A DNA stretch of 18,116 nt from positions 1 to 18,116 of the forward strand of contig JAOUGB010000007.1 in NCBI GenBank assembly GCA_029857875.1. The letters are read 5' to 3'. This DNA is from Desulfobacteraceae bacterium. Lineage in GTDB: Bacteria; Desulfobacterota; Desulfobacteria; Desulfobacterales; UBA11574. Of the stretch, positions 12,953 through 17,747 are shown in pieces. The notes below the pieces were generated by a model. The model worked only from the letters and a program-made list of their open reading frames with translations. It was not told where the DNA came from and searched no databases. Position 1 is the stretch's first letter. Each line of letters begins with the position of its first letter. The position numbers and the translations under genes were made by a program.

Positions 12953-12988
12953 TTTAATCAAGGATCAAGGTTTGATATTCAATCACTT
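12953..12988. repeat. REP-like dispersed sequence, copy 2
   Basis: TTTAATCAAGGATCAAG followed by GTTTG and, after six bases, AATCACTT, as in copy 1 at 9482-9515. It touches the stop codon of the hybrid kinase. Both copies thus sit at the 3' end of a gene in the same orientation. Confidence 0.6.
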
Positions 12989-15340
12989 AAAATTGTTGGT
13001 CTAAAATTTTTCTTATTTCCAATGACAGAATTTTATCATCGAATGGTTTCTGAATAAATCCATCACAACCACTAGATAATATCTTGCCTGCCTGGCCATC
13101 GATGCTATACCCACTTGAAAGAAGAACCTTTATGTCAGGATTGACAGCTCTAAGCTTGTCATAGGTATCTCCACCACCCATCTCCGGCATGACCATGTCC
13201 AAGATGACCATATCGATCTTTTTTTGATTAATTCTGTAAATTTCTATAGCCTCTTTTCCGCTCTTTGCAGTTAGAACCTCATAACCTAATTTTTCTAAAA
13301 CATCGCGGCCAACATCTATTATCATTTCCTCATCATCCACGAGCAGAACTGTCTCTGTACCCTTTAATATTTCTTTTTGTAGCATCTTTTCTTTAACTAT
13401 CTTTTTTTCAGATGCCGGCAGGAAAATGTTAAAAGTCGCCCCTTCACCTTCTCTACTGTATACATTGATAATGCCTCCATGACTTTTTATAATTCCATAA
13501 GCCGAAGCAAGCCCCAACCCCGTACCCCTACTCACCTCTTTTGTGGTAAAAAACGGATCAAATATTCTATGTTGAATGGTTTCATCAATACCAATACCGG
13601 TATCTGTGACAGAAATTTTTACATACCTGCCAGATTTCACTCCATATGGTTTAACATCGTTATCATTTAAAATAACATTTTCTGTTTGAAGATACAGCTC
13701 TCCAGTTCCGGACATGGCCTGCCAGGCATTAACATAGAGGTTTAAAATCACCTGTTCAATCTGAGACTGGTCTACTTCTACGGTCCAGATATCCGCTTGA
13801 CTTTTTTTGTGTATGGTAATCTCTTTTTTAGTTCTGCCAAACATGTCTGAGCTTTTATTGATAATTTCGTTCATGTCAGTCGGCTTGACTTCATATTTTC
13901 CACTTCTGGCAAAGCCCAGAAGTTGTTTGGTAAGATTTGCCGCATTCTTTATATAATCCTCTATTCTATTGAGGTATTCAAAATTGTGGTGATTAGAATC
14001 AATATCAAAAGATAATAGTGACGTGCATCCTTGAATGCCCATTAACAGATTATTAAAATCGTGAGCAATGCCTCCGGCCAGTGTGCCAACGGCCTCCATC
14101 TTCACGGCTTGTTGAAGTTGATTTTCCAGCTCTTTCTGTTCACTGATATCTCTTAAATTTATGACACTGCCCATGGGGTCTCCATCCTCGCTCATATAAA
14201 TGGCTCCGCTTATGCTCACAGGAATAATGCTTCCTTCTTTTGTGTAACGGCGAGTTTCAATGCCCGAAAAATTTTCTCCGGATAACACTTTATTGATCAT
14301 CATTTCGGTTTCCGGCCAAGCATCCGTTGGCACAAAAACATCCATTGACTTGCCAAAACATTCCTCTAATGTCCATCCAAAAACATTTGTGAAGGCTATA
14401 TTAAAGTAGGTTACTTTACCCTCCATATCGTAAACGACAACAGGGTCAGGATTTGCTTCCAGGACTATACGATATTTTTCTTCACTTTGTTTCAAGGCAT
14501 CCTCAATGCGCTTACGTTCAGTGATATCCCTTGCAACTGAAATCATGGCAACAACTTTTCCTTCACGAATTAAAGGGGCGGCACTAACTTCACCGAACTT
14601 CTTCGTTCCGTCCCTGGAAATAAACTCGTATTGAGACAGAGGAATCCGTTCTCCTGCAAGGACTTTCATCGTGTCAGAGAAAGCTTTTTCCAATGAATCC
14701 GGGTCAAGGACATCCAAATCCTGTATGTGCTTTCCGATCATTTCCTCGGGTTTGTATCCCAGTATCCTTTCTACAGAAGGAGATATATTTATAATCTTAA
14801 AATCAGGATTTGTTGAAAATATAACGTCAGATATATTTTCAAAGTATAGGCGGTGTCGTTCCTCACTCTGCTGCAACGCTTTTTCTGCCTGTTTACGTTC
14901 GGTTATATCCCGAAAACTCCATACACGTCCAGCAATTTTATCCTGTCGCATCAACGGACAAGAATAGCGTTCTAAAATCTGTCCGTTTTTAAAGAAGATC
15001 GTATCAAAATCTTCATCTGCTGAATTGTATAGTTCCTGAACTTTTGAGAGAAACGCCTCAGGATATAACAACTGATCTAAAACATACCTGAGCAAGTTCT
15101 TATCATCCCTGGTTTCGATGAGTTCATTTGGAATATTCCATATCTGTGCAAATCGTTCGTTAACAAGACTGACTTTTCCATTTTTATCAACGACATTCCA
15201 TCTACAGCTGATTCTATCGTTGCTTTTAGAAGTTCCTCGCTTTCCCGAAGTGCACTTTCAAGAGAACTTTGTTCAAGTAACTCTTTTTTAATTTTTTTAA
15301 TCCTTTGTTCCAATTCTTCGTAGGATGGTTTTTTTGCCAT
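12987..15340 (-). pseudogene. PAS-PAS-PAS hybrid sensor histidine kinase with receiver domain, one-base frameshift in PAS1
   Basis: The intended product is about 784 residues. It starts at the ATG at 15340 (GGGGGA seven bases upstream) with MAKKPSYEELEQRIKKIKKE, a coiled-coil opening, then three PAS domains ending RDITERK, RDITERK and RDISEQK. Next come a histidine kinase core with TLAGGIAHDFNNLL (phospho-acceptor His near residue 427), NLYVNAWQAM, DTGIGI and GTGLGLASAYG ATP-binding boxes, and a C-terminal receiver (LLVDDEE, ILDMVMPEMGG with phospho-acceptor Asp, QKPF). The frame breaks at about 15192-15195: ESAVDGM in one frame should continue VVDKNGKVSLVNERFAQIWN in the next, as if ATTG had lost one T. 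As written, the kinase would lack most of PAS1. There is no membrane segment, so it should be a soluble sensor. Either a recent mutation or a sequence error. Confidence 0.9.
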
Positions 15341-15422
15341 CAGAAAGTCCCCCACATGAAAAACAAATAAAAGGATTTGGCTTTACTGGAAATAATCCGT
15401 CTATGTTGAACCTTTGAACTGT

Positions 15423-15938: not shown

Positions 15939-16039
15939 TGATTCATTCCTGTTTGATACAATAGTTTATTGTTATTTTAAAATTAAAGGTAGCTTGCCAA
16001 CACCTCAATATCATTTTAATTAAAGATATCGCGAAATTA

Positions 16040-16080
16040 AGCGGTATAGCCGCGTTTCATAAAATCGTTACACGATTTTA
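16040..16080. repeat. Two adjacent hairpins, one a perfect 9-bp palindrome
   Basis: GCGG-TATAG-CCGC (16041-16053) is followed by TAAAATCGT-TAC-ACGATTTTA (16060-16080), a perfect 9-bp stem with a three-base loop. They lie 100-140 bases upstream of the GNAT start on the minus strand. Possible operator or RNA hairpin; no T run on the plus side. Confidence 0.55.
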
Positions 16081-16142
16081 TTCCAGGTAAATGCTGCGTT
16101 TGCCCCCCAACCCTAAACCCCTGCGTGTCGGAGCGAAGCGGA

Positions 16143-16322
16143 GATCCCGGTTTTTTCGGGGTGGAGTGAAACGGAAATTTATCCGCCTCTGGAGGATCCC
16201 GCCTAACGGGGTCCTAACGAAGTGGACTTGTCCGCCGATGCACTGTGGAGGACTTGTCCGCCGATGCACTGTGGAGGACTTGTCCGCCGATCTTTGTGGG
16301 GGAGATCCCGTTATCGGGACCC
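16143..16322. repeat. Hairpin cluster enclosing a 26-bp tandem repeat
   Basis: Three related small hairpins share GATCCCG and CGGG arms: 16143-16163, 16194-16214 and 16303-16322. Between the last two lies a tandem repeat of 26-base units beginning GGACTTGTCCGCCGATG at 16224, 16250 and 16276 (third copy diverges after CCGAT). The block is much richer in G and C than its surroundings and shows no credible ORF. Confidence 0.7.
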
Positions 16323-16656
16323 AGTGAAATTTTTACCCCGCCCGCCCCGCAGGTAGTTTACTATCGTACTGGGATTAAACCGTTCTGTCTTTTTTGTTTT
16401 ACTGGAGCTCTGTAGTGAAGGGCAATGCCCATTTCACCGGGGAACCTTTGAACCCGTAAACGTCTATCTGTATTTTATACTTCTTTAATCACTGATCAAG
16501 AAAATAAACTTAAAATGTTAAGTGCCTGCTCTTCCTGTCCGGAAGGTGCGAGGGAACTCGCATTCCTACCGCGACCTATTACACATGGGAATAAAAATTT
16601 CAACTTTCTTTTCTCAAAAAAGATAAAAAGCAAACCAATGCCAATCGCTATAATAT
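16323..16656. other. Structured non-coding spacer before the riboswitch promoter
   Basis: No gene. It contains hairpins at 16415-16437 (GTGAAGGGCA/TGCCCATTTCAC, imperfect), 16531-16545 (CTTCC/GGAAG) and 16547-16562 (TGCGAG-GGAA-CTCGCA, perfect 6-bp stem with a GNRA-like loop). Confidence 0.45.
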
Positions 16657-16685
16657 TTGACTTCGTCTTCGAAATGTTCTATTAT
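16657..16685 (+). promoter_or_regulatory. Sigma70-type promoter of the riboswitch transcript
   Basis: TTGACT at 16657-16662, a 17-base spacer, then TATTAT at 16680-16685. Predicted transcription start is about 16692, just before the aptamer, which is the spacing expected for a leader riboswitch. Confidence 0.7.
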
Positions 16686-16700
16686 ACTATTTAATAATTT

Positions 16701-16793
16701 CACCAACGAAAGGGCAAAGCTGTCGAAAGGCAGTGACGCAAAGCCACGGGTCAAAAGCTCCAAGGGCCATGATAGCCGGGCTACCGAAGGTAC
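16701..16793 (+). ncRNA. Cyclic di-GMP-I (GEMM-I) riboswitch aptamer
   Basis: The class I c-di-GMP aptamer pattern is clear: AAGGGCAAAGC, then a CTG-t-CGAAAG-g-CAG stem with its GAAA tetraloop (about 16720-16733), the highly conserved GACGCAAAGCC (16735-16745), a second stem starting CACGGGTC, and the tetraloop-receptor side ending GATAGCCGGGCTACCG (about 16771-16786). It matches the known Vibrio Vc2 layout in order and spacing. P1 closure is only partly clear (ACC and CG near 16702-16709 with CG and GGT near 16785-16792). The aptamer lies directly after a promoter and about 110 bases before the start of the beta-barrel gene. Confidence 0.95.
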
Positions 16794-16797
16794 AAGT

Positions 16798-16839
16798 AAA
16801 CGCCTTCATACAATTGGGTACTAAGGCGTTTTCTATTTT
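16798..16839 (+). terminator. Intrinsic terminator of the riboswitch expression platform
   Basis: AAACGCCTT (16798-16806) pairs perfectly with AAGGCGTTT (16823-16831), followed by TTCTATTTT. It sits between aptamer and gene. GAAGG at 16786-16790, part of the aptamer's 3' end, could alternatively pair with CCTTC at 16803-16807 and prevent this stem, giving a plausible switch. Confidence 0.8.
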
Positions 16840-16903
16840 CAGAAGTTCATCGGCAAATGAGCTGACCCCCGTGGTGTATAGCCCAAACAAAAGGGAGGTT
16901 CAC

Positions 16904-17665
16904 GTGAAACGCATATTTTTGCTATTCATCTGTTTTTTAGCTGTTTTTGGTATTGTATTGCCGGTTTCTGCCTTTGAACTGGGCGCTCGAGGATACTACT
17001 GGTTTCCGGAACTGTCCGGCGTTATCCGCGTAGACGATGCCGGTATCGTTGGCACCGAGCTTGATTTGGAAGATGATCTGGGCGTTGACAATGAAAGCTA
17101 TCCGGTTATGGAAGTGTTTGCCGGAATAGGGAAACATCACCTCAGCTTGGCGTTTTACAACCTGGATTATGACGGCGACACCGTTCTTACAAAAGATATT
17201 TATTTTAATGGGGAGCTTTTCCAGGCAAATGAAAGGGTTATCAGTAGTCTGAAGTATGATAATTACGACGTTATGTATAGATATGATTTGATTGATCTGG
17301 AGAACTTTCTGGCCGGCGGTTCTTTGGGATTGGTTGCCAGGCTGATGGTATTTGACGGATCTGCTTCAATCGCTTCAGCAACCGTTACGACCAAAGAGGA
17401 TTTCACCGCACCGATTCCCATGGTAGGTGCCAATTTTCATGTGGGTATATTAAAAGATATTCTAGAAGCCCGGGTGCTGGTAACCGGTATCGGATATAGT
17501 GACAATACGGCTTTTGATGGTCAGGCTGAGATCTCTTTAACGCCGTTCCCGTTTCTGGACATTCACGGCGGCTATCGCTTTTTAAAAATTGATGTCGAGG
17601 AAGATGATGTGAAGCTTGATTTTGATAATTCCGGTTTATACGTGGCGTTAACTGTAAGTTTTTAA
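16904..17665 (+). CDS. Outer-membrane beta-barrel protein under c-di-GMP riboswitch control
   Basis: 253 residues. The GTG at 16904 follows GGGAGG by five bases and opens a Sec signal peptide (VKRIFLLFICFLAVFGIVLP, cleavage after VSA), so the longer upstream frame that runs through the riboswitch is rejected. The mature protein consists of alternating-polarity strands with aromatic girdles (LGARGYYWFPELSG, HHLSLAFYNLDYDG, YDVMYRYDLIDL, LDIHGGYRFLKIDVEE) and ends LYVALTVSF. A terminal Phe is the typical BAM-recognition signature of an outer-membrane barrel. About 8-10 strands fit the length. It is rich in Asp and Glu on the loops. I do not recognise a named family or function. Expression should respond to c-di-GMP, which governs surface attachment and motility, so a surface or matrix role is a reasonable guess. 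It is monocistronic, with a terminator hairpin 43 bases downstream. Confidence 0.88.
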   Translation: MKRIFLLFICFLAVFGIVLPVSAFELGARGYYWFPELSGVIRVDDAGIVGTELDLEDDLGVDNESYPVMEVFAGIGKHHLSLAFYNLDYDGDTVLTKDIYFNGELFQANERVISSLKYDNYDVMYRYDLIDLENFLAGGSLGLVARLMVFDGSASIASATVTTKEDFTAPIPMVGANFHVGILKDILEARVLVTGIGYSDNTAFDGQAEISLTPFPFLDIHGGYRFLKIDVEEDDVKLDFDNSGLYVALTVSF

Positions 17666-17708
17666 TATAATTTTAGCCTGATAACCTGATAATCTGATAG
17701 AGGATTTA

Positions 17709-17747
17709 TAAGCCCGTATGTGAAGCAATATTTCACACACGGGCTTA
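17709..17747 (+). terminator. Terminator hairpin after the beta-barrel gene
   Basis: TAAGCCCGTATGTGAA (17709-17724) pairs with TTCACACACGGGCTTA (17732-17747), one mismatch, seven-base loop. The stem is strong but the T tract after it is poor (AATTATTTG). Confidence 0.7.

Follow-up and report, generated by a model that had tools for sequence, protein, structure and literature searches.

The window analysed here, a stretch of 18,116 nucleotides, corresponds to contig C94 of a draft genome of 3.46 Mb in 722 contigs, labelled G000 in the leader comparisons below. On its plus strand it carries a unit consisting of a sigma-70-type promoter (16657-16685), a c-di-GMP-I (GEMM-I) aptamer (16703-16788), an intrinsic terminator (16798-16839) and a gene for a TIGR04219-like outer-membrane beta-barrel protein (16904-17665). 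A Shine-Dalgarno sequence, GGGAGG (16893-16898), and a terminator-like hairpin 3' of the barrel gene (17710-17746, AAGCCCGT ... ACGGGCTT) were read directly from the sequence; the hairpin gave no match in the terminator pattern scan. The coordinates agree with those proposed in a previous sequence-only reading of this DNA, which had also described the unit as the only one on the plus strand, and indeed all other plus-strand ORFs of at least 80 amino acids overlap minus-strand ORFs. Of ten minus-strand ORFs tested in the window, nine gave a Pfam domain match. The observation of a riboswitch before a barrel gene is real, and the unit joins a known RNA class to a known kind of target. Elsewhere in the window, a PAS/histidine-kinase/receiver gene (12987-15355) may, as judged by eye, run through two frames that overlap (15077-15355 and 12987-15095), which could reflect a frameshift or an assembly error. 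The intergenic stretch upstream of the leader (16024-16640) is a mosaic of dispersed repeats. Segments around positions 1-83, 253-311 and 445-500, counted within this stretch, turn up again in the genus's five genomes, one of which has 41 matches.

A covariance-model search matched RF01051, the sole RNA family listed for the 18 kb window, to 16703-16788 (+) over the full length of the model (positions 1-87 of 87) with 83.5 bits and an E-value of 1.6e-15, well over the gathering score of 35 bits, and the GEMM-I aptamer recognised earlier by eye is thereby confirmed. The aptamer was placed in an alignment together with 23 further aptamers from the genus. As in Vc2 and Cd1 (RF01051), it is complete, with the GAAA tetraloop, GACGCAAAGCC and a G at the selectivity base, and as expected of a c-di-GMP-I riboswitch it lies in a 5' UTR that includes an expression platform, the terminator being situated between aptamer and start codon and kept in six leaders. 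The unit differs from Vc2 and Cd1 in its TIGR04219-like barrel target, in an extra conserved element between the terminator and the Shine-Dalgarno sequence, and in that the leader is found twice in the genome.

The barrel gene extends from a GTG at 16904 to a stop codon ending at 17665 and encodes 253 amino acids, with a signal-peptide-like start (approximately residues 1-23, by eye) and Phe as the last residue, both as previously noted. AlphaFold2 predicted approximately ten long strands (pLDDT 88.2, pTM 0.77), in line with the proposed beta-barrel. A homology search with NCBIfam showed that TIGR04219 matches residues 4-253 over profile positions 3-234, with 78.3 bits and an E-value of 5e-22, below the curated cut-off of 105 bits. 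Judged from this full-length homology and the predicted barrel fold, the protein is a divergent relative of TIGR04219 (OMP_w_GlyGly); the full-length match rules out an orphan family. The protein also shares the C-terminal Phe of the family and a GG near the C-terminus (DIHGGYR), which we take to be the motif behind the family name. Of the earlier description as a surface protein of unknown family switched by c-di-GMP, the GEMM-I aptamer and the predicted barrel are thus retained, while "unknown family" was too strong. Searches for solved structures related by sequence gave none, the four matches obtained at E-values up to 10 (E 1.7-2.2) being unrelated. The 50 structure matches listed for the barrel model include omptins (OmpT/Pla), among the top ones, as well as OpcA and Legionella porin I, which have a similar barrel size at 11-13% identity and do not indicate kinship. 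The omptin Pfam model was absent from the profile matches of the barrel (E-values up to 10 requested, with HMMER filters dropping most above ~0.1), and with this and the low identity an omptin protease is ruled out. In the model, a conserved D219-x-H221 comes after the short turn that connects strands 8 and 9; this turn would be on the periplasmic side, and for this reason the motif is not equated with a protease site.

Barrel relatives (E-values up to 0.001) were found in 94 of the 291 genomes of the order. Within the family, nine of 24 genomes have a barrel relative and 22 have a GEMM-I somewhere; presence or absence of GEMM-I at the barrels themselves was decided by scanning the loci directly. 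In the sister genome G294 of the same genus (Desulfobacteraceae bacterium isolate UBA11574, DNGT01000463.1), GEMM-I is located directly upstream of the barrel on one contig, in the same arrangement as in the window; the barrel gene there is interrupted by two Ns at an assembly gap, and its match falls into two parts. A metagenome homologue, P0064, from a search that gave homologues with 75-96% identity, is 84% identical to the window barrel and its first 52 residues match the translated G294 leader at 85%. The extended N-terminus of P0064 would thus be translated leader, which places its gene behind a GEMM-I leader as well.

No GEMM-I was identified before the barrel in the 29 loci L009-L037, the one match (12.5 bits, E 0.21) lying downstream of the gene. 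Two of 72 further loci have GEMM-I, L149 of G172 (78.9 bits) and L150 of G145 (65.8 bits), both picked because the leader DNA search pointed there and both also among the order-wide barrel matches; the remaining 70 held no convincing GEMM-I, with matches of 15.7 and 12.7 bits inside barrel genes. Another set of 30 loci, retrieved with the G172 barrel as query, yielded these two aptamers again and, apart from them, just two hits of 12.7 and 9.9 bits. Seven of the negatives are weak, with fewer than 300 bases of upstream sequence (L019, L026 and L029 in the first set; L161, L168, L210 and L217 in the second). Four matches at contig ends or on short fragments lie outside the 101 loci (G046:C373, G081:C23, G118:C463 and G253:C13), of which G046:C373 and G081:C23 are covered, with little or no upstream sequence, by L230 and L234 in the 30-locus set. 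The GEMM-I-led barrels of G172 (L149:1150-2174) and G145 (L150:1042-1892) belong to two other families of the order, and their proteins score 171.9 and 112.9 bits against TIGR04219, over the cut-off. In G186 (CP070768.1), two barrel copies (L050 and L051) both lack residues 100-183, with runs of N nearby in both loci; GEMM-I was found at neither locus, including L051, which is 84% identical to the window barrel over residues 1-99. A GEMM-I conserved before all barrel orthologues is ruled out, since most relatives examined are without it. The GEMM-I leader precedes barrels of the superfamily in at least two distant groups and is not general. In the open-access literature, we found nothing that joins a c-di-GMP riboswitch with an outer-membrane beta-barrel, nor anything on a GEMM riboswitch and an outer membrane protein in Deltaproteobacteria, and the available text of the open-access TIGR04219 papers contains nothing on riboswitches.

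In total, seven RF01051 matches were identified in the window's own genome. Their targets, taken by eye as the next sizable downstream ORF at a distance of 65 to about 500 bases, include the barrel gene, a membrane-protein gene referred to here as gene X, two response-regulator genes (PF00072), a flagellar rod protein (PF00460/PF06429) and a PEP-CTERM protein; one of the seven scores better as c-di-GMP-I-GGC and has no clear target. These targets fit the usual theme of motility and envelope functions. The suggestion that relatives of the barrel might stand under further GEMM-I leaders in this genome did not hold, as the genome has a single barrel match and the six remaining leaders stand before genes of other kinds. 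In one of the aptamers, located before a response regulator (L007:729-807, contig C129), there is one G fewer than in the corresponding L107, L096 and L104, so that the site taken to be Vc2 G20 is an A; this would predict a preference for cGAMP, or may be an assembly error.

A DNA search with positions 16640-16903 of the window revealed a second copy of the leader in the same genome (C344:4166-4425, 91% identical), standing before gene X, which is unrelated to the barrel. The same leader is present before X in G278 and G294, and the shared block of ~256 bp reaches from the promoter to the Shine-Dalgarno sequence with sharp borders. Gene X encodes 497 amino acids in G278, and searches of this copy against Pfam and NCBIfam at the chosen thresholds gave no match. 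On C344 of the window's genome (L003:472-1416 and L003:2-475), X is split in two frames, whereas it is a single open frame in G278 and G294. Over 16644-16899, identity is 92.6% between the two barrel leaders (G000_b and G294_b), 88.2-93.4% among the X leaders (G000_X, G278_X and G294_X) and 87.5-91.0% across the two kinds. Upstream of 16644, identity falls to 25-31 of 80-81 positions between barrel and X leaders and to 34 of 80 between the two barrel leaders, compared with 60-69 of 81 among the X leaders; the shared block thus starts just before the promoter and ends at the Shine-Dalgarno sequence. The slightly higher identity of like with like suggests, by a small margin, that the copying predates the divergence of G000 and G294. 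Of the 291 genomes of the order, 58 have X orthologues, most of these lying outside the 21 X loci scanned; GEMM-I is present at four of the 21 (the G278 locus itself, L129, together with L130, L151 and L152), L151 and L152 having been picked because the leader DNA search pointed there.

A relative of the block, from promoter to aptamer, is also found in the sister genome G260, before an apparent cyclic-nucleotide-binding protein (recognised by eye, not by profile). Here, a mobile-element-like insert of 141 bp with inverted ends (GAGACCTTTG...CAAAGGTCTC) is located inside the P3 hairpin of the aptamer (L100:1307-1447, G260:C77); the element is itself hairpin-like and may simply lengthen P3. Two G294 leaders have inserts at approximately the same place as each other, between the terminator and the anti-aptamer element described below (L046:3800-3950 and L094:1909-1946), one resembling the G260 element by eye and the other being a short palindrome.

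These related leaders were used to assess the remaining parts of the unit. The promoter, with a -35 TTGACT, a 17-nucleotide spacer and a -10 TATTAT, was recovered by pattern scan. Promoter-like matches in the scanned region were not above shuffles (5 found, 5.0 expected), and the promoter proposed earlier is supported by its conservation in the five barrel and X leaders, not by pattern frequency: 39-44 of 49 bases are identical in the ten pairwise comparisons, and just upstream the comparisons with a barrel leader drop to 25-34 of 80-81. The intrinsic terminator (AAACGCCUU / AAGGCGUUU, with a U-rich tail) has a stem of nine pairs (AAACGCCTT, 16798-16806, with AAGGCGTTT, 16823-16831), a 16-base loop and a T-rich tail in the DNA. 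The pattern scan, which allows loops of 3-8, found no terminator in the region. The hairpin is present in the folds of all five leaders, and 52 of 54 cells are paired across the six leaders that include G260, with no covariation, which upholds the terminator of the sequence-only reading.

Between these elements, a candidate antiterminator hairpin (16786-16807), in which GAAGGU (16786-16791) pairs with GCCUUC (16802-16807), shares bases with both the 3' end of the aptamer and the 5' arm of the terminator. It appears in the predicted nascent folds of three of the five leaders, and 34 of 36 cells are paired in six leaders, compared with 44-55% when the partner is slid. The support comes from conservation, not covariation: 500 of 500 column shuffles reach its counts, the changes across leaders are one-sided (U-G to C-G, G-C to G-U) with no pair altered on both sides, and G278 breaks two of the six pairs. 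A long antiterminator pairing GGUAC (16789-16793) with GUACU (16818-16822) is retained as a weaker alternative, with 32 of 36 cells paired when one further pair is included and a covariation score that 346 of 500 shuffles attain.

Which ligand is sensed, and in which direction, can be approached by comparison with characterised switches. Model position 11 of the window aptamer is a G, in the RF01051 match as well as in the alignment of genus aptamers, and since it is immediately followed by the model's two paired bases, we infer that this position corresponds to Vc2 G20. According to the available text of two studies, Vc2 G20 has its counterpart in G11 of Cd1 (PMC9262584) and an A20G change turns a cGAMP-selective GEMM-Ib switch c-di-GMP-selective (PMC6456294), so that the predicted ligand is c-di-GMP rather than cGAMP. 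The genome has five GGDEF matches, three of them over the cut-off. That the ligand is instead 3',3'-cGAMP is extremely unlikely; cGAMP variants are described from Geobacter (PMC6456294, available text) and from Desulfobacca (PMC9481103, available text), and the Geobacter GEMM-Ib switches share the fold class and outer-surface gene targets with the unit described here, but the window aptamer has a G where these have the A required at the position equated with Vc2 G20, and it is predicted to be an OFF rather than an ON switch.

The direction, on which the sequence-only reading made no statement, is suggested by the geometry. The terminator, starting at 16798, does not overlap the aptamer, whose last base is 16788, and the canonical P2/P3 aptamer coexists with the terminator hairpin in the folds of four of the five leaders. 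As far as the available text of PMC9262584 describes them, terminator and aptamer likewise coexist in the OFF switch Cd1, where an antiterminator competes, whereas the ON switch pilM has the opposite geometry, with the two mutually exclusive. When c-di-GMP is low, GAAGGU at the aptamer's 3' end would pair with GCCUUC and occupy the 5' arm of the terminator, and RNA polymerase would read through. Binding of c-di-GMP would lock the aptamer end and the P1 helix, the terminator would form and no barrel mRNA would be made. The final minimum-energy folds hold the terminator hairpin with or without a locked aptamer, and an OFF switch would thus depend on kinetics. The same riboswitch could act as an ON switch, with c-di-GMP stabilising the read-through fold and the barrel being made at high c-di-GMP. 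A barrel at the cell surface would be in keeping with sessile life, and in Geobacter sulfurreducens genes downstream of GEMM-Ib, including outer-surface cytochromes, are transcribed less after deletion of the cGAMP-making enzyme (PMC6456294, available text); however, terminator and aptamer have no arm in common here, unlike in pilM as presented in the available text of PMC9262584, and an ON switch appears unlikely, the OFF direction being clearly favoured from this analysis. Given the aptamer identity, the terminator, the geometry, the predicted barrel and the recurrence beside some relatives, the unit is probably a transcription-terminating OFF switch for one TIGR04219-related barrel gene, with c-di-GMP as the presumed ligand and the surface as the presumed location of the barrel.

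A second, translational layer is compatible with the OFF switch. After the terminator, the five barrel and X leaders contain an element CUGACC(U)CCCGUGG (CUGACCCCCGUGG in the window, 16862-16874), of which CCCGUGG (16868-16874) is complementary to CCACGGG of the aptamer (16744-16750) and ACCCCC (16865-16870), with one bulge, to the Shine-Dalgarno GGGAGG. The element could pair either with the aptamer, in which case the Shine-Dalgarno stays accessible, or with the Shine-Dalgarno once ligand has locked the aptamer, so that the terminator and translational control of read-through mRNA would be two stacked OFF layers. We regard this as a tentative addition. In its favour, 14-16 of 16 aligned bases (16862-16877) are identical in the ten pairwise comparisons of the five leaders, with the window's missing base treated as an uncounted gap, and this in spite of an insert just before the element in two of the five; CCCGUGG is present in all five and CCUCCC in four, the window having it minus one base. 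The duplexes are stronger than most dinucleotide shuffles, with p values for the anti-aptamer duplex of 0.01 (G000_b), 0.021 (G294_b), 0.005 (G000_X), 0.06 (G278_X) and 0.01 (G294_X), and for the anti-Shine-Dalgarno duplex of 0.093, 0.022, 0.003, 0.003 and 0.002, respectively; the five leaders are homologous close relatives, and both these p values and the conservation are weak and non-independent. Locking the aptamer in its own minimum-energy fold clearly lowers the predicted Shine-Dalgarno accessibility in the window (0.38 to 0.20) and in G278_X (0.29 to 0.01), but hardly alters it in G000_X (0.33 to 0.32) and G294_b (0.01 to 0.00), and for G294_X (0.07 to 0.00) the lock is not the true aptamer fold. 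Also against a second layer, the window is without one anti-Shine-Dalgarno base, as reflected in its p value of 0.093, and the sixth leader, that of G260, has neither CCCGUGG nor CCUCCC.

The duplication can be read in two ways. The leader could mainly be a copied promoter, the riboswitch being carried along without a selected role at the barrel; the 256-bp block is common to an unrelated gene of the same genome at 91% identity, and most examined barrel relatives have no such leader. This is very unlikely, as the aptamer has changed little (the two barrel leaders agree at 95 of 96 positions, and the barrel and X leaders of the window's own genome at 93 of 96) and GEMM-I also precedes TIGR04219 barrels in G172 and G145. 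Alternatively, promoter, riboswitch, terminator and Shine-Dalgarno sequence may constitute a portable cassette with two stacked OFF layers, duplicated in one piece in front of unrelated envelope genes within the genus, a proposal we consider speculative.

The newest point of this analysis is the duplicated whole leader before an unrelated gene, which together with the possible second layer is the part worth testing; the open-access literature gave nothing relevant on riboswitch duplication onto unrelated genes. It represents a natural case in which an entire promoter-riboswitch leader has been duplicated onto an unrelated gene. If the cassette is real, it would place unrelated envelope genes under one second-messenger threshold, and if the translational layer is real, one aptamer would drive two control layers on one mRNA. 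For the barrel group, which is widespread and has no assigned function in the libraries used, the GEMM-I leaders provide a tie to c-di-GMP signalling in some lineages.
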